Of a DNA stretch of 36,272 nucleotides, positions 9,725 through 36,272 are shown piece by piece. The DNA comes from a virus: IMG/VR virus record IMGVR_UViG_3300031758_000240, positions 1-36,272 of that record. One strand, written 5' to 3'. Numbering within the stretch: position 1 is the stretch's first letter; each line of letters starts with the position of its first letter. The notes beneath the pieces were generated by a model, which was not told the origin of the DNA, did no database searches, and worked only from the letters and a program-made list of their open reading frames with translations. Made by a program: the position numbers and the translations under genes.

Positions 9725-9749
9725 TTCTGCATAAGTAGAGATAGGAAGA
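9725..9749 (+). promoter_or_regulatory. Recurrent late-promoter-like motif, copy 2
   Basis: TGCATAAGTAGAGATAGG starts at 9728 and is followed by AAGA. This is the copy closest to the consensus. It comes right after the head-block terminator and 84 bases before the fibre locus, so it would drive the adhesion genes independently. Confidence 0.65.
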
Positions 9750-13461: not shown

Positions 13462-16400
13462 ATGGCGGACAGGTACTGGGTGGGCGGGACGGGGAGCTGG
13501 ACCAACTCATCTACAACCAACTGGTCGACCAGCTCTGGCGGCGCCAGCGGCGCCTCGGCCCCCACAACCTCGGACGATGTATACTTTGACGCCAACTCAA
13601 ACGTAGGCACCGGCTCGTTCACGGTAACGACAAGCTCGACCCCAAACTGCCGAAATTTGACAATACAGAGCCTAGATGGGGCCATGACCCTGGCCGGAAC
13701 CACCAACTTGACCGTGGCGGGTTCGATATTTTTCTCTGGCTCAAACCTCACCTACACCAGGACCGGGGACCTGGTACTGGCCCCCACAAGTAACTCTTTT
13801 GTGACCACAAACGGCGTCTCGCTGGCCTCCGGAGGGGTGGTTATAAACACAACCGGCGCGTCTACCACTACCCTTGGCAGCAGCTTGACTTGTGCTGGGT
13901 TTACAGTAACGGACGGGGCGTTTATTACCAACAACTGGAATTTAACGTGCACCTTTTTTTCGTCAACCGGCTCCGCCACGCGGTCCATAACGCTCGGCAC
14001 TTCGACCATAGCCTGCAGCAGTAGTTTTGCTTTAAGCAGCACCAACCTTACGTTCTCTGGCGCAAGCTCAGACATTGTACTGTCCGGCGGCAGTGTTTTC
14101 TTTACCGGTGCTGGCCAGACCTTTGGAACGGTAAGGTTTACAAACAACTCCGCCTCGATTCCAGCGCTTACAATAAGTGGCGCCAACACGTTTAGCTCGT
14201 TGCGTTTGTGTGACAACACGCGCACCGTTGTGCAGCCATTTATTTTTAGAATTACTGCAACTCAGACCTGCACGACTAACTTTATATGCCGCACGACCGT
14301 CGCAAACAGCCGCATCATGGTAATAGGCTCGGATGCCAGCGGGCCGATTACCATTTCTACCCCCGTCGCAACACTTCAAAATGTCGACTTTGGCTGGATC
14401 AACGGCGCCGGGGCCGCGGCACCCTTTACTGGGACACGTATCGGAGACCTCAGCGGCAATACAAACATAACCACCTCCGCGCCCAAGACGGTCTACTGGA
14501 GCGCGGTTGGTGGCGGAAACTACACCGACACCGCCTGGGCGCTCTCAAGCGGTGGGACCCCAAACGCGGACAACTTTCCGCTGCCGCAGGACACGGCGGT
14601 GGTTGAAAACACCGGCCTAAACGTTAGCGCCACCATCACCATACCCGCAAGTTGTGCGTTTAACGGCATCGACACCTCTACCAGGACAAACGCGGCCACC
14701 CTCGCGGTTGCCTCAACCTCGACCTATTGCTTTGGCACAATCTACAACTTCTCGTCGCCAAACGTGACGTTCCCGGTCGTTGGTAACTTTTTTTACTTTA
14801 GTTCGCCCACGACGCAACAGGTGTGGCTGCCCACCGGCACCAACAACTTTACGCCCATTCTTTACACTAATTTTTCTACTAGCTACGACACGACAAACTT
14901 AACATATCGTGGCACGCTAAAGTTTATGAACTCCGGTCGGCTCGGCGGAGCCAACAATTTTGTCCTATATCACGCCTCGGGGACCTTAGACGTAAACGGG
15001 CAAACGATCGAACTGACGGGGTCAGCCGCGACTATTAGGTTTAATAATTCGGGATCTGCTTCTCAATTTTTGCAATGGAACTTTAACGGCGGGACGGTGG
15101 ACGTAACGGCAAACCCCACCAATTCCTACGCTCTATACTTTGATAGTAACTCGCCCTACTACATCAAGTTTGACTCTGCGCTCAACGCCGGGGGGTTTAG
15201 GATTATGCCAACGGGGACCAATACGGCTATTACCTATTTGCGAATGCCGCCGTTTGCCGTTACCACGATTGGGGTCGTCCCGCCAAACATCGAGCTCCGC
15301 AGCGTCACAAACTTAAGTGGAAATTTTAGACAGTTTTATTTTGTGGACCTCGGCACGTTCCACGTAAATAACTTTGTCACCTCCATAACGGCCGCGGCCG
15401 ACGCAGGCAGCAGCGGGCCCTTTGCCTACATTAACACCTCAGGGCACATGATCGTAAGCGGCAACTTTACAGTGTGCCGCAGGACGAGGGTGCAACACTT
15501 TAGCACTTTCGTTATATGCCTCGCCAACAATGCCTTTTCTTTGCCATCGCAGGCAAACATTAGCGTTGAGTCTAACAGCGCCAACGTCAACATATACCCC
15601 GCCGTGTATTTTGGGTATGATATTTATTATAGTCAAAACAGGCTAAACACCAGCTACGTGGTGTCCCAGAGCTCCGCGGCCGGCAGCACCGGCTTTACAT
15701 GGTCGCCATGCATTTTTTACTTTTTTGGTGGGACACTTAACCTTAACGGCAACCGCATACCCATCGACCGCTTTTTTTATAATGGCCCCGGCCCGTGCAC
15801 GCTTGTGTCCGGGACTAACGGCACGATCGCAAGCAACTTCACAAGCACTACAGTGAGCGACTATGCCTGGAACGTAAACACGTCCACCGCTAATTTTAAT
15901 ATCACCGGCAACGCATACCTGCAATGCACCGCCAACAACGCAATAAGCTTTAACGTACTAAACTCCTCAAACACCGGCTTGAGCATAAACCGATCGGCGG
16001 GCACCGGTAACGTATACATATCGGGAAACGTTCGAGACTACGCCAACACGGCAGCGTCCCCGGTACCGTCTAATAGTTTTAGCTTATACGGCAACCTTAC
16101 AATGCCCGTAAGCGGCCAATCAAATAGCGCAATTACTATAACTTGTCTTGGCGGAGACACGCAGACGATAACAACCAACGGCGCAAACTGCAACTACCAA
16201 ATAAACATCAGTAAGACGGTGGGCACGAAGGTTATACTGGCACAGAACACGACCGTAGCCAGCTCCGGAAGGATTATATTGACCCAGGGCGAGCTGGACC
16301 TTAACAATTTTAACCTGACAATACAGACCACGAACGGAATACAAACCGCGGCGGGGGCGGCAAAGAGGATCTACCTCGGCAGCGGCACCATCACCGCGGC

Positions 16401-16896
16401 ATACTTTGACGTGTCCGTTGACTCCGCCGATGTCACCGTGACCCCCGGCACCTCGACCATTATCATGTCCAACGGGGTATCTTCAAGCCAATTCCTTGGC
16501 GGGGGCAAGACCTACAATGTGCTTAGGAAGGCGGGCTCCGGCATTTTAACAATTGCACAAAGCAACACCTTTGCCACGCTAGAAAACGACCAGACCGGCA
16601 CCCAGGGCACGATCAGGCTTATAAACGCCACGACGCAGACCGTTACCGGCAGCGTTAACCTAAGCGGAAACTCCGCCAGCCGGCTCGTAATAGACAGCAA
16701 CTCCGCTGGGGCCCAGGGCTCGCTGTACATCGCCCCCGACGCCACCGTAGACTCCGACTGGCTAAACATTCGCGACAGCAACGCCACCGGCACCAAGTAC
16801 TGGTACGCCGGCAACAACAGCCTAAACACCAGCAACAACACGGGCTGGATATTCTGTGGCGCAAAAGATCAAAACTTTGTATCATTCTTTAGCTGA
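13462..16896 (+). CDS. Giant beta-solenoid adhesin 1
   Basis: 1144 residues, dominated by Ser, Thr, Asn, Gly and Ala in short beta-strand periods, as in beta-solenoid adhesins. It starts with MADRYWVGGTGSW...NWST..GGA and a SDDVYFDAN box. A second, related box (KTVYWSAVGG...AWALSSGGTP...LPQDTAVV) begins near residue 345. The end carries NIRDSNATGTKYWYAGNN and NNTGWIF before a short FVSFFS tail. All three landmarks, at the same places, recur in the 1255-aa protein at 18807. Probably a long host-recognition fibre. No signal peptide or membrane segment, as expected for a virion protein. Many Asn-X-Ser/Thr and Ser/Thr-rich sites could be glycosylated. Confidence 0.85.
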   Translation: MADRYWVGGTGSWTNSSTTNWSTSSGGASGASAPTTSDDVYFDANSNVGTGSFTVTTSSTPNCRNLTIQSLDGAMTLAGTTNLTVAGSIFFSGSNLTYTRTGDLVLAPTSNSFVTTNGVSLASGGVVINTTGASTTTLGSSLTCAGFTVTDGAFITNNWNLTCTFFSSTGSATRSITLGTSTIACSSSFALSSTNLTFSGASSDIVLSGGSVFFTGAGQTFGTVRFTNNSASIPALTISGANTFSSLRLCDNTRTVVQPFIFRITATQTCTTNFICRTTVANSRIMVIGSDASGPITISTPVATLQNVDFGWINGAGAAAPFTGTRIGDLSGNTNITTSAPKTVYWSAVGGGNYTDTAWALSSGGTPNADNFPLPQDTAVVENTGLNVSATITIPASCAFNGIDTSTRTNAATLAVASTSTYCFGTIYNFSSPNVTFPVVGNFFYFSSPTTQQVWLPTGTNNFTPILYTNFSTSYDTTNLTYRGTLKFMNSGRLGGANNFVLYHASGTLDVNGQTIELTGSAATIRFNNSGSASQFLQWNFNGGTVDVTANPTNSYALYFDSNSPYYIKFDSALNAGGFRIMPTGTNTAITYLRMPPFAVTTIGVVPPNIELRSVTNLSGNFRQFYFVDLGTFHVNNFVTSITAAADAGSSGPFAYINTSGHMIVSGNFTVCRRTRVQHFSTFVICLANNAFSLPSQANISVESNSANVNIYPAVYFGYDIYYSQNRLNTSYVVSQSSAAGSTGFTWSPCIFYFFGGTLNLNGNRIPIDRFFYNGPGPCTLVSGTNGTIASNFTSTTVSDYAWNVNTSTANFNITGNAYLQCTANNAISFNVLNSSNTGLSINRSAGTGNVYISGNVRDYANTAASPVPSNSFSLYGNLTMPVSGQSNSAITITCLGGDTQTITTNGANCNYQINISKTVGTKVILAQNTTVASSGRIILTQGELDLNNFNLTIQTTNGIQTAAGAAKRIYLGSGTITAAYFDVSVDSADVTVTPGTSTIIMSNGVSSSQFLGGGKTYNVLRKAGSGILTIAQSNTFATLENDQTGTQGTIRLINATTQTVTGSVNLSGNSASRLVIDSNSAGAQGSLYIAPDATVDSDWLNIRDSNATGTKYWYAGNNSLNTSNNTGWIFCGAKDQNFVSFFS

Positions 16897-16897
16897 C

Positions 16898-17968
16898 ATG
16901 AAAATAGCCGTATACGCCATATCTAAAAACGAGGAGCCCTTTGTCAAGAGGTTCTGCGAGTCCGCCAAAGACGCGGACTACATCGTCATCGCAGACACCG
17001 GGTCCACAGACGGCACCCCCGGCGCGGCCATGGAGCACGGCGCCATCGTGCACCACATCAGCGTTCAGCCCTGGCGTTTTGATAAGGCAAGAGACACGGC
17101 CCTGGCCCTGGTCCCGCCGCACGTAGACGTATGCGTCAGCCTGGACCTGGACGAGGTCTTAGAGCCCGGCTGGCGACAGGAGATCGAGCGTGTATGGGTG
17201 CCGGGGCACACGACCAGGCTGCGGTACATGTACGACTGGGGCAACGGCGCTAGGTTTATGTACGAGAAGATACACGCCAGGTCCGGCTACCACTGGCACC
17301 ACCCCTGCCACGAGTACCCAAGGCCCGACATGAGGATCGTTGAGAGGCGCGCGTTTACGGACAAGCTGCTCGTGACCCACCACCCCGACCCCAGCAAGAG
17401 CCGCGGCCAGTACCTGGACCTTTTAAAGATGTCGGTGGCCGAGGACCCCAGCTGTCCGCGCAACTCGTTCTACTACGCCCGCGAGCTGACATTTTACAAC
17501 CGCTGGAACGATGCCACGCAGGCGTTGCATCGCTACCTAGAGAACCCAAACGCGACCTGGGACAGCGAGAGATCCTTTGCAATGCGTTTGCTTGGCAAGT
17601 CGTACCAGGCGCTGGGCGACAAAGACAAAGCACACGAGTGGTTCAAGAAGGCCGTAGACCAGGCGCCCAGGCTGCGCGAGCCGCTGGTCGACCTGGCAAA
17701 ATTTTATTATGAGGCGCAGGACTGGGAGAAATGCTACGCAACCGCCAGCATGGCGCTGCAGGTCTTGGACAGGGAGACGTCTTACATCAGCAACCCCGAG
17801 GCGTGGGCCGACCTACCGCACGATTTACTGGCGATATCGGCCCACTACACCGGCAGGGTAGAGGAGGCGATCAAGCACGGCCAAGAGGCCCTGAGACACA
17901 AACCACAAGACGAGCGCCTACGCAACAACCTGTCCTGGTACCAGGGCGCACAACAGAGGGCGGCATAA
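16898..17968 (+). CDS. GT2 glycosyltransferase with TPR repeats
   Basis: 356 residues from the ATG one base after the adhesin stop; a longer in-frame GTG at 16856 would overlap the adhesin and is less likely. Residues 1-100 are a GT-A fold start: KIAVYAISKNEEPFVKRF, the nucleotide-binding ADTGSTDGT (32-40) and the metal-binding DxD in SLDLDEVL (D83, D85). The middle is His/Trp/Tyr-rich (SGYHWHHPCHEYP). Residues about 215-345 are TPR-like helices (LLGKSYQALGDKDKAHEWF; EEAIKHGQEALRHKPQD). It probably transfers a sugar from a nucleotide donor. Placed between fibre genes, its target could be the fibres themselves; sugar and acceptor are unknown. Confidence 0.85.
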   Translation: MKIAVYAISKNEEPFVKRFCESAKDADYIVIADTGSTDGTPGAAMEHGAIVHHISVQPWRFDKARDTALALVPPHVDVCVSLDLDEVLEPGWRQEIERVWVPGHTTRLRYMYDWGNGARFMYEKIHARSGYHWHHPCHEYPRPDMRIVERRAFTDKLLVTHHPDPSKSRGQYLDLLKMSVAEDPSCPRNSFYYARELTFYNRWNDATQALHRYLENPNATWDSERSFAMRLLGKSYQALGDKDKAHEWFKKAVDQAPRLREPLVDLAKFYYEAQDWEKCYATASMALQVLDRETSYISNPEAWADLPHDLLAISAHYTGRVEEAIKHGQEALRHKPQDERLRNNLSWYQGAQQRAA

Positions 17969-22783: not shown

Positions 22784-23242
22784 TTGGCCCAGCTACCTGA
22801 CCCCATCGACCCATCAAAGGTCGTACAGACGGCCCTTGGCGGTATCAAGGAGGCCCTCAAGGCCGGCCGTGAGATCAAGGAAACGGCCAAGGAGGTAAAC
22901 GCCTTCCTGGACGAAGAGGCACGCGCTCGCGTGGCCTTTAAGCGCCGCCAGCAAGAGGTACAGCGCCGCGGGGACATGATGTACATCGACGCCATCAACG
23001 AGTACCGCGTCCTGTTTAACATACGCCAGGCCAAGGAGCAGGCCTTTAAACAGATAGAAAAAGAGTTTGGAAAGAGGGCCGTGCAGGAGGTTACGGCGCT
23101 CGAGGAGAGGCTGCGCAAAGAGAGGAAGGACCTCCAGCGAGAGTATGACTCAGACCGCCGCCAGACGCGTAACGAGTGGCTGATCATCGGCCTTCTCGGT
23201 CTTTTAATTTATGGAATCTTAAAAATGACAAAGGTGTGGTGA
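22784..23242 (+). CDS. C-terminally anchored coiled-coil membrane protein
   Basis: 152 residues from a TTG start two bases after the previous stop; no better start is visible. It opens with LPDPIDPSKVVQTALGGIKE. About 100 residues of charged helix follow (EEARARVAFKRRQQEVQRRG; ALEERLRKERKDLQREYDSD), then a C-terminal hydrophobic segment (LIIGLLGLLIYGILKM). The topology, with coiled coil first and anchor last, is the reverse of an inner-membrane spanin. Similar proteins occur beside lysis genes of uncultured phages. Function unknown. Its stop overlaps the start of the holin gene (ATGA). Confidence 0.7.
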   Translation: MAQLPDPIDPSKVVQTALGGIKEALKAGREIKETAKEVNAFLDEEARARVAFKRRQQEVQRRGDMMYIDAINEYRVLFNIRQAKEQAFKQIEKEFGKRAVQEVTALEERLRKERKDLQREYDSDRRQTRNEWLIIGLLGLLIYGILKMTKVW

Positions 23243-23700
23243 TGATAGGAATAGACGCAATACTTAAAATTGGCGAGAAAGTACTTGACCGGGTCCTGCC
23301 GGACCCGGCCGCAAAGGCGGAGGCGCAGGCCAAGCTGATGGAGCTGGCCCAGAAGGGCGACCTTGCAAATCTCCAAGCAGAAGTTGATTTTGCAAGGATC
23401 GACGCTGAGGACCGTGACTCTGCCAGAAGCCGTGAGTCTGAGATGGCAAAGGCAGACGTGTGGGACCTCACAAAAAACATCAACACCGTGCTGGCCATAG
23501 GCGTAATCGCGTTGTCCTTCATATTATTCGCGGCCCTCATGACGATCGAGGTCAAGAGCATGGCCAAGGACATTTTGATTTACATACTGGGCGTGTTGTC
23601 TGCGGCGGTGACCCAGATACTGTCTTTTTACTTTGGGTCCAGCCAGGGCTCTAAAAACAAACAGGCAGAGATCGACAAACTGATGGGGGGTAACAAGTGA
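23242..23700 (+). CDS. Holin, GTA/3TM type (predicted)
   Basis: 152 residues. I chose the ATG at 23242 that overlaps the previous stop; the frame stays open further upstream but only inside that gene. The family pattern is good: IGEKVLDRVLPDPAAKAEAQ, then DAEDRDSARSRE, then hydrophobic segments (TVLAIGVIALSFILFAALM and ILIYILGVLSAAVTQILSF) ending in FYFGSSQGSKNKQ. Such holins oligomerise in the inner membrane and release or activate the endolysin. The endolysin gene follows with a 4-base overlap, which supports the role. Confidence 0.75.
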   Translation: MIGIDAILKIGEKVLDRVLPDPAAKAEAQAKLMELAQKGDLANLQAEVDFARIDAEDRDSARSRESEMAKADVWDLTKNINTVLAIGVIALSFILFAALMTIEVKSMAKDILIYILGVLSAAVTQILSFYFGSSQGSKNKQAEIDKLMGGNK

Positions 23701-24161
23701 ACCTATCGCCAAACTTTACGCTTGTAGAGATGACCAAGTCCGAGACCGGCCTGCGCCTTGGTATTAAGAACGAGCCTAACGAGGAACAGCTTAACAACCT
23801 GATGCAGCTCGCGCAAAAAGTGCTGCAGCCAGTGCGTGACGCTTTCAAGAAGGGGGTCAAGGTAAACTCCGGCTTGCGGGTTCCGGAGCTTAACAAGGCC
23901 GTGGGCGGGTCGCCAACGTCCGACCACTGCCGGGGACAGGCCGCGGACATCGAGATCCCTGGCGTCTCAAACTACGCCCTGGCCAAGTGGATACAGGACA
24001 ACCTGGAGTTTACGCAGCTTATACTTGAATTTTATACCCCCGGCGTGCCTGACTCTGGGTGGGTACACGTCAGCTACGACCCCAAAGACCTCAAGCGACA
24101 GTCAATGACGGCCGTTAAGCGGGACGGCAAGACCGTATATTTACCGGGCCTTGTGGCCTGA
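23697..24161 (+). CDS. Endolysin, M15-type zinc peptidase
   Basis: 154 residues from a GTG overlapping the holin stop, with a G-rich ribosome binding site (GGGGGG) seven bases upstream. The M15 pattern is complete: SGLRVPELNKAVGGSPTSDH with H77, QAADIEI with D84, and GWVHVSYDP with H124, the expected zinc ligands. Glu111 in LILEFY is a possible catalytic or structural acid. It should cut peptide bonds in peptidoglycan stem peptides. There is no signal peptide, so release needs the holin. No cell-wall-binding domain is present, as usual for phages of Gram-negative hosts. Its last codons form the stem of a terminator-like hairpin. Confidence 0.85.
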   Translation: MNLSPNFTLVEMTKSETGLRLGIKNEPNEEQLNNLMQLAQKVLQPVRDAFKKGVKVNSGLRVPELNKAVGGSPTSDHCRGQAADIEIPGVSNYALAKWIQDNLEFTQLILEFYTPGVPDSGWVHVSYDPKDLKRQSMTAVKRDGKTVYLPGLVA

Positions 24162-26897: not shown

Positions 26898-28169
26898 ATG
26901 CCGACGTATGTATCGCCATTTACTGGGGACGTTGTACAGCCTACCGACGTAAGCTACCAGTCCCTTACGTTTTCTACCAACCAAGAGCTGTCCTGGCCGG
27001 ACAGCACAATACCTGGTGGCAGTACCGTGGTTGCGGCGAGGATCATAGACTGCATCGCAAACGCGCCAGGTCTATCAATTCGCCTGCCGCCGGCCAATCA
27101 GATATCTGTCGGAACCGATATTCTTTTTCGTAACCGAGGACTGGAAGACTTTGTAGTTGAGGACTACACCGGAAGCAACGACGTAACCATAGCCGCTGGA
27201 ACCGCGCGGTACTTCTACCTGGTAGACAACAGCACCGCCGCCGGGGTGTATCGCAACTTTACCTACGGCGCCGGCACCTCAATAGCAGACGCTGCGTCTT
27301 TGGTCGGCAGTGGCCTTACGACCATGGCAGGGAAGTTGGAAACCTCAACGGACGTGGTGGAGGTTTCCGTCGCGCCATCTCTTGATGAAACCAGTCGGGC
27401 CCTGGCCTACGTATGGACCAGCGGGGCCGGTACGTTTAACCTCCCGGACCCCGCAACGATTGAGCCGGGTTGGTTTATCATGGTGAGAAACGGAGGAACC
27501 GGCGCGCTTACGATTACGCCGTTTACCGGATCTCTGATCGACAACACCAGCACCTCAACGTTTTACCCGTCAGACTCGGCAATCATTGTCTACGACTCCG
27601 ACACGGATAACTTTTTTACGGTGGGCTTGTCCCGTCAGACAACCGTGGTCTACACATCGGCCACCTACGACGTAGACTCAATCGTAGGCAACACCATGAG
27701 CCTGGTAAGTTTTGCCCCCACAATTCAGACCTACGTGGCGTTTACTGGGGCCAGGACTCAGACACTTACGGTGACGCTGCCCGCAATCACTCAGCTGTAC
27801 GTTATATCGAACACCACAAACCAGCCGGGGTACAGCGTTGAGTTTCAGGTCTCTGGTAGCATACAGCCCCCAATTCAGTTTGGCGATGGCGTTACCGCCA
27901 TTTTGTTAAGCGACGGGACAAACCTGACCACCATCGCAACGACTACCGTGACCGGTTTATTCCTGGCAAATGACGGCACCGCGCTGGCGCCAACGTTTAG
28001 CTTTATCAGCGATACAAACACCGGCTTGTACCGGTCGTCGTCTGACGTTCTAAACGTGACCGCCGGCGGCCAAGATATATTTGAGTTTAATGCGTCAAAC
28101 TTAAGCAGCCTGCAGGTGTCTACGCCGGCAGAGTTTAACGCTGGCATTATTTCTGGTGGCACGTTCTAA
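26898..28169 (+). CDS. Beta-rich tail protein
   Basis: 423 residues, almost entirely beta and rich in Thr, Ser and Val. Several repeated short modules are seen: PSLDETSRALAYVWTSGAGT then FNLPDPATIEPGWFIMVRNG reads like a fibre shaft unit; SFISDTNTGLYRSSSDVLNV is a motif common near the ends of phage tail fibres. No enzyme motif. It lies between the adaptor and the gp10-like gene and its stop overlaps the latter's start (TAATG). It could be a short tail fibre, a nozzle-associated or a needle protein; the sequence does not decide. Confidence 0.7.
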   Translation: MPTYVSPFTGDVVQPTDVSYQSLTFSTNQELSWPDSTIPGGSTVVAARIIDCIANAPGLSIRLPPANQISVGTDILFRNRGLEDFVVEDYTGSNDVTIAAGTARYFYLVDNSTAAGVYRNFTYGAGTSIADAASLVGSGLTTMAGKLETSTDVVEVSVAPSLDETSRALAYVWTSGAGTFNLPDPATIEPGWFIMVRNGGTGALTITPFTGSLIDNTSTSTFYPSDSAIIVYDSDTDNFFTVGLSRQTTVVYTSATYDVDSIVGNTMSLVSFAPTIQTYVAFTGARTQTLTVTLPAITQLYVISNTTNQPGYSVEFQVSGSIQPPIQFGDGVTAILLSDGTNLTTIATTTVTGLFLANDGTALAPTFSFISDTNTGLYRSSSDVLNVTAGGQDIFEFNASNLSSLQVSTPAEFNAGIISGGTF

Positions 28170-30259
28170 TGGCGCAGCAGTTAGACCAAAACCTTGGAAT
28201 GATCTACACCCTCGGCGTGCAGCCGGGGATAAAACGCGACGGTACAAGCTTTGAGTCAAGAGAGTTTACCGACGGCGTGTGGGCAAGGTTCCAGCGAGGA
28301 ACACCCCGTAAGACCGGCGGGTACCGTCAGATGTTTAGGGATTCCAACGGTATCGCGAGGGGCATGATTGTAAACGCGTACAACGGCCTTAACTATTTGT
28401 TTGCCGGCAACGCCACAACGATCGACGCGTTTACGACCGGCACCACGCTCGGTGCCGGTAACGGTCCTTTCCCCTGTGTCATGAACGTCGGGTATGCTGA
28501 GGAGCCAGTTATTGCCACCGGCGTTAATGACTTTGACGTAACCGGAGACCAGACCGCAAAGTATCCGATTGGCACAAAGGTAGTCTTTGACCAGACGCCT
28601 GGGGCCCAGATCTACACCGTAACCGGATCGGTATTTGTCGTTAATACAACCGTAACCGTAACGCCGGCCATGCCCGGCACGCCGCCAACCAGCGTATGGC
28701 TGGCCGATACGTACTACCAGCCAGATGTTGATAACCTGTGGCAGTTTGACATTCAGTACAACCCGCAGGGTGGGGCCCTTGAGGTAATTGCCCACCCAGG
28801 TCAAAACTTACTTAACATCGACAGCGGCTTTCAGACGCAGGTATACGCTGGCGATATTTTACCTGGCCCTGGCAACGTCTGGAATTTCTACGGGCTCTCA
28901 GACTCAGAGGGCGGCAACCCCACCTTTGCGCCAATAACGACCGATGGCGGGGTGTGCGTCCTGTACCCCTTTATTTTTATCTACGGATCTAATGGGTTTA
29001 TCGCAAACAACCACGTAGATGCCGTATACACAGACCAAAACTTTAACGACTGGAACGGGCCACTTGCCAACCGGGTTAACATGACGGCCGGTAAGATCGT
29101 AAAGGGCATGCCGGTGCGTGGCGGCACCAACTCCCCGTCCGGTCTGTTCTGGGCTACCGATAGCCTTATCCGGGTGTCTTTTACAGGCAACCCGGCGCAG
29201 TACTGGAAGTATGACATTGTTTCTAGCCAGACCTCCATCATGTCATCGAATTGCGTCGTTGAAAGTGACGGAATTTTTTACTGGATGGGCGTTGACCGTT
29301 TCTACCTATACAACGGCTCGGTTCAGGTTCTCCCCAACGATAAAAACATAAACTGGGTGTACGACAACCTAAACTTTCAACAACGCCAGAAGGTGTGGGC
29401 CACTAAGGTGCCCAGATATAACGAGATCTGGTTTTTTTATCCGCGGGGCTCCGCAACCGAGTGCACCGACGCCATCATCTACAACGTCAAGGACAAGATC
29501 TGGTACGACGCGGGCCAGGCCCTTGGCGCTCGAAGATCGTGCGGGTACACGACGGAGGTCTTCCCCAGCCCGATATGGTTTGGGTGGGAGTACGTCGCGA
29601 GCTTCTCCAACCCGTACCAGGTGGCGGCAACCCCTGGCGCATCTCCGCCGCCCGGCCCCAACGAGCTGTACCTGGAGGGAGACGTGACGCCAGGGCTCCC
29701 GCCAAGTCAAAACTTTCAATTTTCTACCGTCGTTGGCGCTGATTTTTATACCGTGGTGAGCGTGTTGTATGACCCCGTGTCAAACACGACGTTCCTGGTG
29801 GCTAATGAAAATTTTTCAACTTACCCGGCAATTGGCGATAACGTATACCCCACCAACAACGGGTACACCATGTGGCAGCACGAGTACGGGGTCGATGAAA
29901 TCAGCGACAACGGGACCCTGGCCATACAGTCCAGCATCACGACGTGTGACATCAGCTGGGTGGGCGGCGACCCGTCCCAGGACTCTGGTAAGGGCGTAAA
30001 CCGCCGCATTCACCTGCGACGGGTCGAGCCAGACTTTGTACAGTCCGGCAACATGACGCTGCAGGTAATTGGCAGGAAGTTTGCTAGGGGCAACGAAGAG
30101 GAGTCCCCGGTCTTTACGTTCGGGCCAAACGATGGCAAGGTAGACCTGCGGATTGAGAACCGGGAGAGCCGTATTAAGTTTGAGAGCAACGTCGCCGGTG
30201 GAGACTACCAGATGGGCCGCGTGCTGGTCACGGCAGAGTACGGGGACGAGCGGCCATGA
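28169..30259 (+). CDS. Packaged-DNA stabilisation / tail hub protein (P22 gp10-like)
   Basis: 696 residues. The start (QPGIKRDGTSFESREFTDGV, then WARFQRGTPRKTGGYRQMF) is a hallmark of P22 gp10-like proteins in many podoviruses. The rest is beta-propeller-like, with blades such as VVESDGIFYWMGVDRFYLYN and KVPRYNEIWFFYPRGS, as expected for the tail hub or nozzle ring under the adaptor. It should close the portal channel after packaging and carry fibres or a needle. At 696 residues it is longer than P22 gp10 (about 470), with extra insertions. No P22 gp26-like needle was recognised nearby. Confidence 0.75.
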   Translation: MAQQLDQNLGMIYTLGVQPGIKRDGTSFESREFTDGVWARFQRGTPRKTGGYRQMFRDSNGIARGMIVNAYNGLNYLFAGNATTIDAFTTGTTLGAGNGPFPCVMNVGYAEEPVIATGVNDFDVTGDQTAKYPIGTKVVFDQTPGAQIYTVTGSVFVVNTTVTVTPAMPGTPPTSVWLADTYYQPDVDNLWQFDIQYNPQGGALEVIAHPGQNLLNIDSGFQTQVYAGDILPGPGNVWNFYGLSDSEGGNPTFAPITTDGGVCVLYPFIFIYGSNGFIANNHVDAVYTDQNFNDWNGPLANRVNMTAGKIVKGMPVRGGTNSPSGLFWATDSLIRVSFTGNPAQYWKYDIVSSQTSIMSSNCVVESDGIFYWMGVDRFYLYNGSVQVLPNDKNINWVYDNLNFQQRQKVWATKVPRYNEIWFFYPRGSATECTDAIIYNVKDKIWYDAGQALGARRSCGYTTEVFPSPIWFGWEYVASFSNPYQVAATPGASPPPGPNELYLEGDVTPGLPPSQNFQFSTVVGADFYTVVSVLYDPVSNTTFLVANENFSTYPAIGDNVYPTNNGYTMWQHEYGVDEISDNGTLAIQSSITTCDISWVGGDPSQDSGKGVNRRIHLRRVEPDFVQSGNMTLQVIGRKFARGNEEESPVFTFGPNDGKVDLRIENRESRIKFESNVAGGDYQMGRVLVTAEYGDERP

Positions 30260-30513
30260 GCGCGCCCATCAACCAAAGCATTCCCTTTATCGCGACCGAC
30301 AGCACGTGGGAGAGCTGGAACGGGAGCATGCTGCACTACTTTGGGCAGGAGCCCCTGCCGCGCGTTGATGAGGAGAACTGGCCGGACTTTGCGTTTCAAA
30401 TGGCCGGGCTCCCGACGTTTATGTCGTACGGCATACCCAGCCCGGACAACTTCGATAAATGGCAGGACTGGGTCTCGATGGTCGTATCTTTGGTTAACGG
30501 GCCGACCGAGTAG
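30256..30513 (+). CDS. Small conserved-looking tail-block protein
   Basis: 85 residues, Trp/Pro-rich (DSTWESWNGSMLHYFGQEPL; DKWQDWVSMVVSL). The start overlaps the gp10-like stop (ATGA). It has no membrane segment and no recognised domain. I recall similar short proteins in the tail modules of uncultured podoviruses, so it may be a minor tail component, but the function is unknown. It is the last gene of the neck and tail block; a promoter-like motif and inverted repeat follow. Confidence 0.7.
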   Translation: MSAPINQSIPFIATDSTWESWNGSMLHYFGQEPLPRVDEENWPDFAFQMAGLPTFMSYGIPSPDNFDKWQDWVSMVVSLVNGPTE

Positions 30514-30521
30514 GGGGTATA

Positions 30522-30560
30522 ATCTTCTCCGTTTCTGCATTAGTAGATATAGGAGAAGAT
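30522..30560 (+). repeat. Inverted repeat that can hide the ACP ribosome binding site
   Basis: ATCTTCTCC (30522-30530) is exactly complementary to GGAGAAGAT (30552-30560), with a 21-base loop holding promoter-like copy 4. The right arm contains the GGAG ribosome binding site of the ACP gene. A transcript started at the motif (predicted near 30552) would lack the left arm and so could not form the hairpin. Confidence 0.7.
30533..30557 (+). promoter_or_regulatory. Recurrent late-promoter-like motif, copy 4
   Basis: TGCATTAGTAGATATAGG begins at 30536 and is followed by AGAAG. It differs from the consensus by one base in the core. It lies 27 bases before the ACP start, so the predicted leader is only about 11 bases. 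A perfect TATAAT (30518-30523) just upstream lacks a convincing -35 box. Confidence 0.65.
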
Positions 30561-30562
30561 GA

Positions 30563-30847
30563 ATGAATTTTCTGGATCTGTTTAACCGGCTGGCAAGGCT
30601 GGCCAAGCCGGCGGCGGCGAGTGAGCTGGTCGAGATAACCGACCCACAGGGGCCCCTGAAGGACACGGGAATTGACAGCCTGGACATGCTGATGATCACG
30701 GTCTACCTGTGCGAGATCTTTGGCATACCGGAAGAGGTCGGCAAAAACCTAAAGCCGGCCAGTGTGGCAGAGGTAGAGGCCTTCGTGCAACAGCACAAGA
30801 CGAGGGACTTTGGTTCGGTAGAAGAGGCACTGGCGGCGATAACGTGA
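30563..30847 (+). CDS. Acyl carrier protein
   Basis: 94 residues. Small acidic helical protein with the ACP signature DTGIDSLDMLM, in which Ser39 of DSL would carry 4'-phosphopantetheine. Helix II (SLDMLMITVYLCEIFGI), the loop PEEVGKNLKPASV and helix III (AEVEAFVQQHK) follow in the right order. It is about 15 residues longer than Escherichia coli AcpP, at the C-terminus. The arm would be added by a host phosphopantetheinyl transferase, since none is seen here. Its stop overlaps the start of a ketosynthase gene by four bases, so the two are made together. The GGAG ribosome binding site is well placed but can be sequestered by an upstream repeat. Confidence 0.85.
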   Translation: MNFLDLFNRLARLAKPAAASELVEITDPQGPLKDTGIDSLDMLMITVYLCEIFGIPEEVGKNLKPASVAEVEAFVQQHKTRDFGSVEEALAAIT

Positions 30848-31938
30848 TTTGGCTGACCGACTACCGGACGGCCTGCACGGACCAGACGCAGGCGCTAGAG
30901 GACCTGCCGTACCCGCAGCGGGTGCACATGTTCCCCGAGACCTACCGCAGGTCGGAGACGGGCCTGGTCTACCCGCCGCACAAGCTGGCGGATAAGGTGT
31001 TGGACCCGCAGCTGGTGGCAGACGTAAGGTCACGGCCTGGCAAGACGGGGTTCATACTGGCATCGGGCAACAGCCACTTCGCCGGGATGAACGGCAAGGA
31101 AAAGAAGACGCAGCTCTGGTACGACTACAAGATGCTGCCGATGACCCTGACCCAGGTATACGCCGGCCGCATAGCGCAGCAGATGGGGGCACAGGACCTG
31201 GTAACGACGGACGCGTCTGCGTGCGCCTCGTCGTTAAAGGTGATGATGGACGTGTACATCATGATCAACTTCTACGGTTTTAAGCGCGTGGTTGTTTTAA
31301 GTTTAGAGGACGCGGTATCAAACAACGTCCTGCAGTTCTTTGGTGAGTCGGGTGCATGCCTGACGCTAAAGCAAGAAGAAGAGAGCAAAGTTATTCCATC
31401 CGCGTTTGACAGTAATAACTTTGGTTTCTACGTGGCGCAGGGCGCGGTGCTTGCCGTGTTTGAAAGCGCAGACTCCGGCCACGCTAGATTGGTAAGCGCA
31501 TACAGCGCGTCTGAGAGCAGCACCAACGCCATAGGGCAGCGAGACGATGGCGAGGGTTTTGTGAAGGCCATGCACGGCGCCATGAAGTACGGCAACGTGT
31601 CGCCGGGCAACATATCCGTGGTCAAAACCCACGGCACCGGCACCAGGTCCAACAACCTGGCAGAGGCCAGGGCGATCAAGAGCGTGCTGAACGATTTTGT
31701 AGCAACCTCATTAAAGCCAACAATTGGCCACACGATGGGGGCCTCGGGTTTGTTAGAAACCTGTGTACTGCTTGACAGACTAAAACAAACCGGCAAGGTG
31801 CCGGCAATTAAAAATAGGACCGAGCACGACCCAGTCTTCCTAAGTGAGGACACCCGGCCAAGGAGCGGAATGATCATGAGCTTAGCGGCGGGGATGGGCA
31901 ACATATACAGTGCCGCAATTTTTGACCCGAGGGTTTAA
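30844..31938 (+). CDS. Beta-ketoacyl-ACP synthase (FabF/KAS-like)
   Basis: 364 residues from the GTG at 30844, inside the ACP stop (GTGA); upstream in-frame codons lie inside the ACP gene. Thiolase-fold condensing enzyme that joins an acyl chain to malonyl-ACP. All three catalytic residues are in canonical context: Cys127 in TTDASACASS, His263 in KTHGTGTRSNNLAEA and His296 in KPTIGHTMGASG. The last segment (SLAAGMGNIYSAAIF) stands where FabF has its GFGGTN loop but is altered, so chain specificity may differ. It is about 45 residues shorter than FabF (about 410), mainly at the N-terminus. The pairing with an ACP gene argues for an active enzyme. A catalytically changed or virion-linked role is also possible. 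Confidence 0.85.
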   Translation: MIWLTDYRTACTDQTQALEDLPYPQRVHMFPETYRRSETGLVYPPHKLADKVLDPQLVADVRSRPGKTGFILASGNSHFAGMNGKEKKTQLWYDYKMLPMTLTQVYAGRIAQQMGAQDLVTTDASACASSLKVMMDVYIMINFYGFKRVVVLSLEDAVSNNVLQFFGESGACLTLKQEEESKVIPSAFDSNNFGFYVAQGAVLAVFESADSGHARLVSAYSASESSTNAIGQRDDGEGFVKAMHGAMKYGNVSPGNISVVKTHGTGTRSNNLAEARAIKSVLNDFVATSLKPTIGHTMGASGLLETCVLLDRLKQTGKVPAIKNRTEHDPVFLSEDTRPRSGMIMSLAAGMGNIYSAAIFDPRV

Positions 31939-32405
31939 TGGTTGACTCAAAAATGGAGCAGCTGAGCAACGAGGAGATTGTAGAGATCGCCGCTCAGAAC
32001 ACCGGCTCACAGTACTCACCGGAGCAGGTACGCGCCGCCATCATGGCAGAGGTGCGCACCCCCGACACGCTTGCCCTCCAACAGGGCAACACGCTGTTTG
32101 TCGTCCACCGGTCCAAGAAGGACCCGTCCGTGGCCGTGTTTCGCGCGCTAAACGCAGACACCGCACCAAACTACCTAGAGAACAGCTTCGTCTTTACCGA
32201 GACCATGCGGTCCATGGGGTTTCGTGCCATGGTGTCGACATTCTACGACTCCTCCATCCTGAACATATTCAAGTACATCTCACGCAACCCGCCATTCCCC
32301 GGCATGGGCTACCAGGTCAAGAGGACGCAGGACGGTGGGTTCTTTGTCACCGTAAACCTAGGCTCCGACCAGAACGGGCTGAGCGCCGTTAAGGGAAGTG
32401 CATAA
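31938..32405 (+). CDS. Unknown protein coupled to the ketosynthase
   Basis: 155 residues. The start overlaps the ketosynthase stop (TAATG) and its own stop overlaps the next start. N-terminal helices (LSNEEIVEIAAQNTGSQYSP, then EQVRAAIMAEV) are followed by an alpha/beta domain (NTLFVVHRSKKDPSVAVFRA; FVFTETMRSMGFRAMVSTFY; SILNIFKYISRNPPFPGMGY). The last part slightly resembles an acyltransferase fold, but no GNAT motif is seen. Similar proteins occur in uncultured phages among virion genes. It could be an assembly chaperone, a minor internal protein or a partner of the ACP pair. Confidence 0.75.
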   Translation: MVDSKMEQLSNEEIVEIAAQNTGSQYSPEQVRAAIMAEVRTPDTLALQQGNTLFVVHRSKKDPSVAVFRALNADTAPNYLENSFVFTETMRSMGFRAMVSTFYDSSILNIFKYISRNPPFPGMGYQVKRTQDGGFFVTVNLGSDQNGLSAVKGSA

Positions 32406-35450: not shown

Positions 35451-36272
35451 TGGCAATGAGCGGACTCTCGTACTTCGACAACGGCGGACAGACAGAAGAG
35501 CAAACACCTGTCACGGCACAGGTTAAACCAGTGCAGGGCAAGGGGCCTTACGCCGTTGGGTTGCCGACCGGTAACGTTCCGCTGAGCGAGGGCGTTCTGT
35601 CCTCCATGGAGCAGCTCTACGTAAACAAGATGATCCAGCAACAGGGCTTTATGGAGGCCATGAAGGACGCCGCCGCCTGGTGGTCCGGTGGCATCGAGGG
35701 CCCGACCGCGGCACTATCGCGACGGGCAAAGGAGCGAGAGGAGCAGACCGCAAACTTGTTCCAGCTTCAGACACAGATCGCGCAAAGCAGAGCTGCGCAG
35801 GAGCAGGCAAAGAGACAAGCGGCGGAGCTTACGTCGGCCGTTGGTGGGGCGGAGGGCCCCGGAGCCGCAGCTGCGTTTGGCGTTGAGCCAAGGGTTAGAA
35901 ATGAGGTGCTTCGTTTAATTAAGTCTGGGGATGTAGCTGGCGCTAAAGGCGTGTACGACAACTGGTTTAAAACTGACCTGAACGAAACTATTAAGTTCCT
36001 CAACAACGCCGCGTCTTACAAAGCAGACGTTGAAATAATTGATGAAAACGGAAAGTACAACATTGTAAGCGCAATCGACGCTAAAAGATTATTTAGCGAG
36101 GGCAAGGCCAGGCCGACAGGCAAGACACTGGGCGGCACGAACGCGCCGGCAGCAGCACCTCCGGCAGCAGCACCTCCGGCAGCAGCACCTCCGGCAGCAG
36201 CACCTCCGGCAGCAGCACCTCCGGCAGCAGCACCTCCGGCAGCAGCACCTCCGGCAGCAGCACCTCCGGCAG
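35450..36272 (+). CDS. Internal virion protein 3 (3' partial)
   Basis: The frame is open from the ATG at 35450 (TAATG overlap, GGGAG ribosome binding site) to the end of the window, at least 274 codons. The start (MAMSGLSYFDNGGQTEEQTP) is followed by charged helices (SMEQLYVNKMIQQQGFMEAM; QTQIAQSRAAQEQAKRQAAE). A compact region follows (RNEVLRLIKSGDVAGAKGVY; DVEIIDENGKYNIVSAID). The visible end is a Pro/Ala linker of PPAAA repeats that leads to a C-terminal part outside the window. By position it is the third ejection-type protein, and an enzymatic domain such as a lytic transglycosylase could lie beyond the linker, but that cannot be seen. Confidence 0.75.
   Translation, partial: MAMSGLSYFDNGGQTEEQTPVTAQVKPVQGKGPYAVGLPTGNVPLSEGVLSSMEQLYVNKMIQQQGFMEAMKDAAAWWSGGIEGPTAALSRRAKEREEQTANLFQLQTQIAQSRAAQEQAKRQAAELTSAVGGAEGPGAAAAFGVEPRVRNEVLRLIKSGDVAGAKGVYDNWFKTDLNETIKFLNNAASYKADVEIIDENGKYNIVSAIDAKRLFSEGKARPTGKTLGGTNAPAAAPPAAAPPAAAPPAAAPPAAAPPAAAPPAAAPPAAAPPA
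36146..36272 (+). repeat. 15-bp tandem repeat encoding PPAAA
   Basis: Eight full copies and part of a ninth of a 15-base unit (GCAGCAGCACCTCCG in one phase) run without visible change to the end of the window. The unit is five codons, so length changes keep the frame. The identical copies suggest recent expansion, and such a repeat often stops assembly. Confidence 0.95.

Follow-up and report, generated by a model that had tools for sequence, protein, structure and literature searches.

Can a virus carry its own machinery for extending acyl chains, and if so, what is that machinery doing among the genes for its virion? The question is raised by a single virus record of 36,272 nucleotides (hereafter 'the window', meaning that whole stretch), in which an earlier note, made from the letters alone, had recognised two overlapping genes for an acyl carrier protein (ACP) and a ketoacyl-ACP synthase (KAS), sharing a promoter-like motif and translationally linked to a third gene and then to ejection-type proteins. 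The note proposed that the pair heads an ejection-protein operon, and that it might redirect host fatty acid synthesis late in infection, change membrane lipids for lysis, or supply an acyl group to a virion protein. The observation itself proved to be correct; the reading placed upon it was borne out only in part.

The open reading frames are as the note had described them, and their positions are collected in Table 1. The KAS gene begins with a GTG codon inside the ACP stop (GTGA, an overlap of 4 nt), while the third gene and the gene that follows it each begin in a TAATG overlap of 1 nt. The KAS matches both ketosynthase Pfam domains above their curated cut-offs (PF02801 at 7.8e-16 and PF00109 at 6.8e-08) and FabF structures in the PDB at 5.8e-19. 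It also matches the NCBIfam fabF model at 3.6e-29, but with 101.7 bits against a cut-off of 493.75 (and with 48.1 against 630 for KAS I), such that the curated score for FabF or FabB proper is not reached. The ACP of the window, taken alone, is marginal (PF00550, E 0.0048, 17.6 bits against a cut-off of 20.8), although a family profile built from 71 relatives matches solved ACPs at 7.8e-05.

Table 1. Positions of the pair, its neighbours and other elements in the window
Position	Strand	Feature	Remarks
30563..30847	+	Acyl carrier protein (94 aa)	Predicted phosphopantetheine site Ser39 in D38-S39-L40-D41
30844..31938	+	Ketoacyl-ACP synthase of KAS I/II type (364 aa)	Cys127, His263, Lys291, His296; loop G350-M351-G352-N353-I354-Y355 in place of FabF GFGGTN
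31938..32405	+	Protein with predicted GNAT fold (155 aa)	Tail-region gene; no canonical Q/RxxGxG/A motif; neighbour rather than obligate partner
30533..30552	+	Recurrent motif TTCTGCATTAGTAGATATAG	Upstream of the ACP; relatives carry versions of it at both the late and the early site
9725..9744		Second copy of the motif, on the coding strand	2 mismatches
30494..30523	+	Sigma-70-like hexamers TTAACG-18-TATAAT	Weak; consensus match only
30256..30513	+	Small tail-region gene (85 aa)	Directly upstream; a similar small gene is there with or without the pair
28169..30259	+	Virion structural protein	Counterpart annotated 'phage stabilization protein' in MW202545.1
32405..34318	+	Large Ala/Gly-rich virion-region protein	Candidate ejection protein; function inferred from position only
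16856..17968		Glycosyltransferase with TPR repeats	Strong match to PHROG 13126 (beta-1,4-glycosyltransferase)
36093..36272		Tandem PPAAA-type repeats in the last ORF	Runs off the window end

The arrangement is more than a chance occurrence, because over 200 viral contigs encode relatives: 222 were confirmed by a search with the KAS, 234 by a search with the ACP and 205 by a search with the third gene (partly the same contigs, of which 80 were kept from each search). Among distinct sequences with enough flank, 154 of 154 KAS genes have the ACP directly upstream and 145 of 145 ACP genes have the KAS downstream, with overlaps of 4 or 1 nt dominating; the pairing is thus obligate, and it holds at three different genomic sites. 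In the annotated phage collection, in contrast, only one record (MW202545.1, 57 kb, Manatee Spring) has all three genes, and a tblastn search with the ACP at E 0.01 hit that record only. Median values of dN/dS are 0.079 for the KAS, 0.077 for the ACP and 0.075 for the third gene, over many pairs that are not independent, indicating strong purifying selection on both members of the pair.

Is the condensing enzyme intact? The earlier note had named in advance several outcomes that would have overturned its reading (no condensing-enzyme fold, a misplaced triad, or homologues in which the triad is not conserved), and none of them occurred. The predicted KAS structure (pLDDT 93.9, from an alignment that left out MW202545.1) has a thiolase-type fold and matches Streptococcus pneumoniae FabF at Z 40.5, with an rmsd of 2.9 over 351 residues and about 20% identity. 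The triad positions given in the note (Cys127, His263 and His296) are right, but a fourth catalytic residue, Lys291 (equivalent to FabF Lys335), had been missed. All four residues align with those of FabF and FabB and are invariant in 155 of 155 distinct viral sequences, whereas Asp38-Ser39, followed by Leu or Met, is present in 150 of 150 distinct viral ACPs. Retention of the cysteine also led to the rejection of a KSQ/CLF-type identity for the KAS.

The enzyme nonetheless differs from FabF in several respects. Its N-terminus is about 33 residues shorter in the alignment, and the gating loop that reads GFGGTN in FabF is replaced by GMGNIY, with Met in place of the gating Phe in 154 of 154 readable sequences; in Escherichia coli FabF this residue (Phe400) gates the active site, so that ordinary elongation cannot be assumed. 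In the ACP, helix II lacks the equivalent of AcpP Glu41 and mostly that of Glu47, while the equivalents of Asp35 and Asp38 are kept, which is consistent with a private KAS-ACP interface. In a tree built with 16 bacterial-labelled rows and E. coli FabF and FabB, the viral KAS rows form one group (SH-aLRT 100) on a stem of about 5 changes per column, far from the sampled bacterial enzymes; this was, however, a quick tree with long branches and a bacterial sample chosen by shared motifs, and it does not identify the exact sister. The only member with a cellular label (L244, a locus from a Balneolaceae metagenome-assembled genome) lies inside the viral group, with ORFs of phage-like sizes in the same order around it, and is best read as a phage contig.

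Where, then, does the pair belong in these genomes? Most pairs lie in the tail region, as in the window, but a set of 44 loci (with duplicates) carries the pair in the early replication region, between an SNF2-type helicase and a small gene, near DUF2800 and an Enc34-type ssDNA-binding protein, and one contig (locus L180) shows a third site. Three phages that use the early site, here labelled G004, G024 and G025, are kin of the window phage (terminase 84% identical for G004 and G025, major capsid 92% for G004), and in G024 the tail region holds the small gene and the third gene with no pair between them. In a further relative, G080 (capsid 94%), both known sites are empty, with the helicase and the small gene lying 6 nt apart; because about 15 kb may be missing from this contig by comparison with G004, absence of the pair is not claimed. 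In some phages that lack the pair at the tail site, a small ORF (MHGxQTMKYLNDKA...) occupies it (in G080 at about 27513-27668, within locus L295, and in loci L097, L101 and L127). The tree of the 71 viral rows needs two early/late changes, plus one for the third site. The claim that the pair heads an ejection-protein operon in a meaningful way is therefore not supported, and neither expression only late in infection nor a dedicated role with ejection proteins is general.

The nearest cultured kin by terminase (43%) are the Caulobacter phages GB2A, RLK, KcrB and RW, which gave no match for the pair by tblastn. In kin of the window phage, an ORF of 323-330 aa directly upstream of the terminase (locus L291 at 13764-14756 on the minus strand, G025 at 23050-24021 and G080 at 967-1959) begins like a Hint/intein module (...VGDYVF) and is possibly an intein-like element, although the L291 copy had no Pfam match.

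The promoter-like motif is a recurrent sequence; its second copy in the window compares with 0 expected by chance. A motif like TTTGCATTAGTATA precedes the ACP at both the early and the late site in several phages, lies on the coding strand at the empty sites of G080 (loci L295 and L296), and is far above chance in the window and in G080. It scored no match within 2 mismatches in one early-site stretch of G004, where a more degenerate form is visible. It may be a promoter, and it is inferred that recombination between its copies could move the pair. The sigma-70-like hexamers are less persuasive, since the region as a whole holds no more such sites than shuffled sequence (2 versus 2.4).

The third gene, which the earlier note had left unnamed, is predicted to encode a GNAT acyltransferase fold: its model (pLDDT 92) has the GNAT order of strands and helices, and the top matches are all GNATs (Z 10-12; RimI and HP0935 at 11.8-11.9), without any match at the level of sequence. 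The canonical acyl-CoA loop of motif A (Q/RxxGxG/A) is absent; the strand-to-helix turn reads NADTAPNY in the window, and N72 and D74 are invariant. A Pfam search found no HlyC-type match in any member, nor did HlyC-type proteins appear among the listed fold matches, which does not exclude such kinship. The gene is next to the pair in 114 of 138 cases and without an adjacent pair in 24, ruling it out as the obligate partner; it is a tail-region gene that can stand alone, though it might use acyl-ACP from the phage or the host. A PADLOC search returned nothing for the three proteins.

With moderate confidence, at about even odds, these observations are best explained by a phage-specific, apparently catalytically intact KAS I/II-type condensing enzyme with its own dedicated ACP, serving as an auxiliary elongation module that acts in trans on host type II fatty acid synthesis. 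What the analysis establishes is the predicted fold, the complete Cys-His-Lys-His active site, the obligate pairing, the strong purifying selection and at least two changes of genomic position. Everything concerning activity, substrate and product is inferred: that the host's phosphopantetheinyl transferase (AcpS) arms the phage ACP; that the host's malonyl transferase, reductases and dehydratase serve it; and that the KAS condenses malonyl-ACP with an acyl chain, so that infected cells would make or lengthen acyl chains under phage control, with a chain or partner preference set by the altered loop and the less acidic ACP surface. The inferred dependence on the host rests on the finding that no PPTase (PF01648) or SDR (FabG-type) reductase (PF13561) was found in 28 long relatives (records of 23-68 kb), in a search that did not extend to FabD-, FabZ- or FabI-type genes, and nearly all relatives are metagenomic fragments. 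Relocation argues for action in trans and against a role tied to ejection proteins. In this view the pair would act early in some phages and probably late in others, with the acyl chains most likely going to membrane or envelope lipids, which is the simplest reading.

Of the alternatives, the one that survives best, although it is not favoured, is that the KAS and ACP make an acyl-ACP that the neighbouring GNAT-fold protein transfers to a virion or host protein, in the way that HlyC-type acyltransferases use acyl-ACP. The predicted fold of the third protein, its overlap with the KAS stop codon in the window, its lack of the usual CoA-loop motif and its frequent adjacency to the pair keep this idea alive, and G024 carries both although about 18 kb apart. 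Against it stand the third genes without an adjacent pair, the presence of the third gene in G080 where both known pair sites are empty, and the different neighbours of early-site pairs; furthermore, a GNAT fold alone does not show use of acyl-ACP. An equally tentative extension, not excluded by the evidence, is that a virus-specific two-protein condensing system with a private ACP and a remodelled gate makes a distinct acyl product (not ordinary host fatty acid) that the phage needs in infection, with the GNAT-fold protein as one user of it.

Less likely is interference, in which the pair drains malonyl-ACP, titrates a host ACP partner or otherwise blocks host fatty acid synthesis rather than making a product. 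Only two proteins of the pathway were found, the gating loop is changed, and ACPs have regulatory partners in bacteria; however, the whole catalytic tetrad is invariant, whereas decarboxylating KSQ/CLF-type proteins have lost the cysteine, and a pure decoy would not need these residues. Similarly unlikely is the synthesis of a specialised small acyl or polyketide-like molecule (a signal or modification precursor) rather than material for membrane lipids. The deep separate clade, the private ACP and the altered loop are in its favour, as is the presence of the type II polyketide ketosynthase AntDE among the closest folds (Z 40.3, tied with FabF), but no tailoring enzyme, chain length factor or thioesterase was seen next to the pair at the sites examined. 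Recent capture of an ordinary auxiliary metabolic gene pair from a host fab operon, although the acpP-fabF order matches such operons and acpP-fabF-fabG sets are reported in roseobacter prophages (PMC8224337), is very unlikely in view of the low identity to FabF, the unmet equivalog cut-off, the single viral clade on its very long stem and the phage-specific invariant residues.

Phage-borne ACP and fabF genes have been listed before (PMC8224337, PMC11705849, PMC7029224, PMC12783922, PMC10653327). The roseobacter prophage sets and the fabF of a pelagimyophage (PMC7029224) are reported as host-pathway auxiliary metabolic genes, with fabG in the prophages, while no FabG-type gene was found in the 28 long records of the separate viral family described here; the ACP of Alteromonas phage R22Y (PMC11705849) is reported without a KAS, whereas here the ACP is always found with one. 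Two members of the present family, 60-62% identical, already carry synthase names by similarity (UniProt A0A6J7X0R1, 'FabB', from an uncultured Caudovirales phage, and UOF78413.1 of MW202545.1), but no description of the family, its obligate pairing, its altered loop or its relocation was found in the open-licence papers searched.

Phage lipid genes are mostly isolated list entries that are read as host captures. In contrast, this is a deep viral family, always ACP plus KAS, kept under strong selection in many environmental phages and moved intact between early and late positions, which makes it possible to ask clearly whether a phage steers host fatty acid synthesis, and with what acyl product. 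It also offers a natural KAS in which the gating Phe has been replaced. The inseparable pair, with every catalytic residue kept but a remodelled active-site loop, suggests that these viruses make or redirect acyl chains in infected cells.
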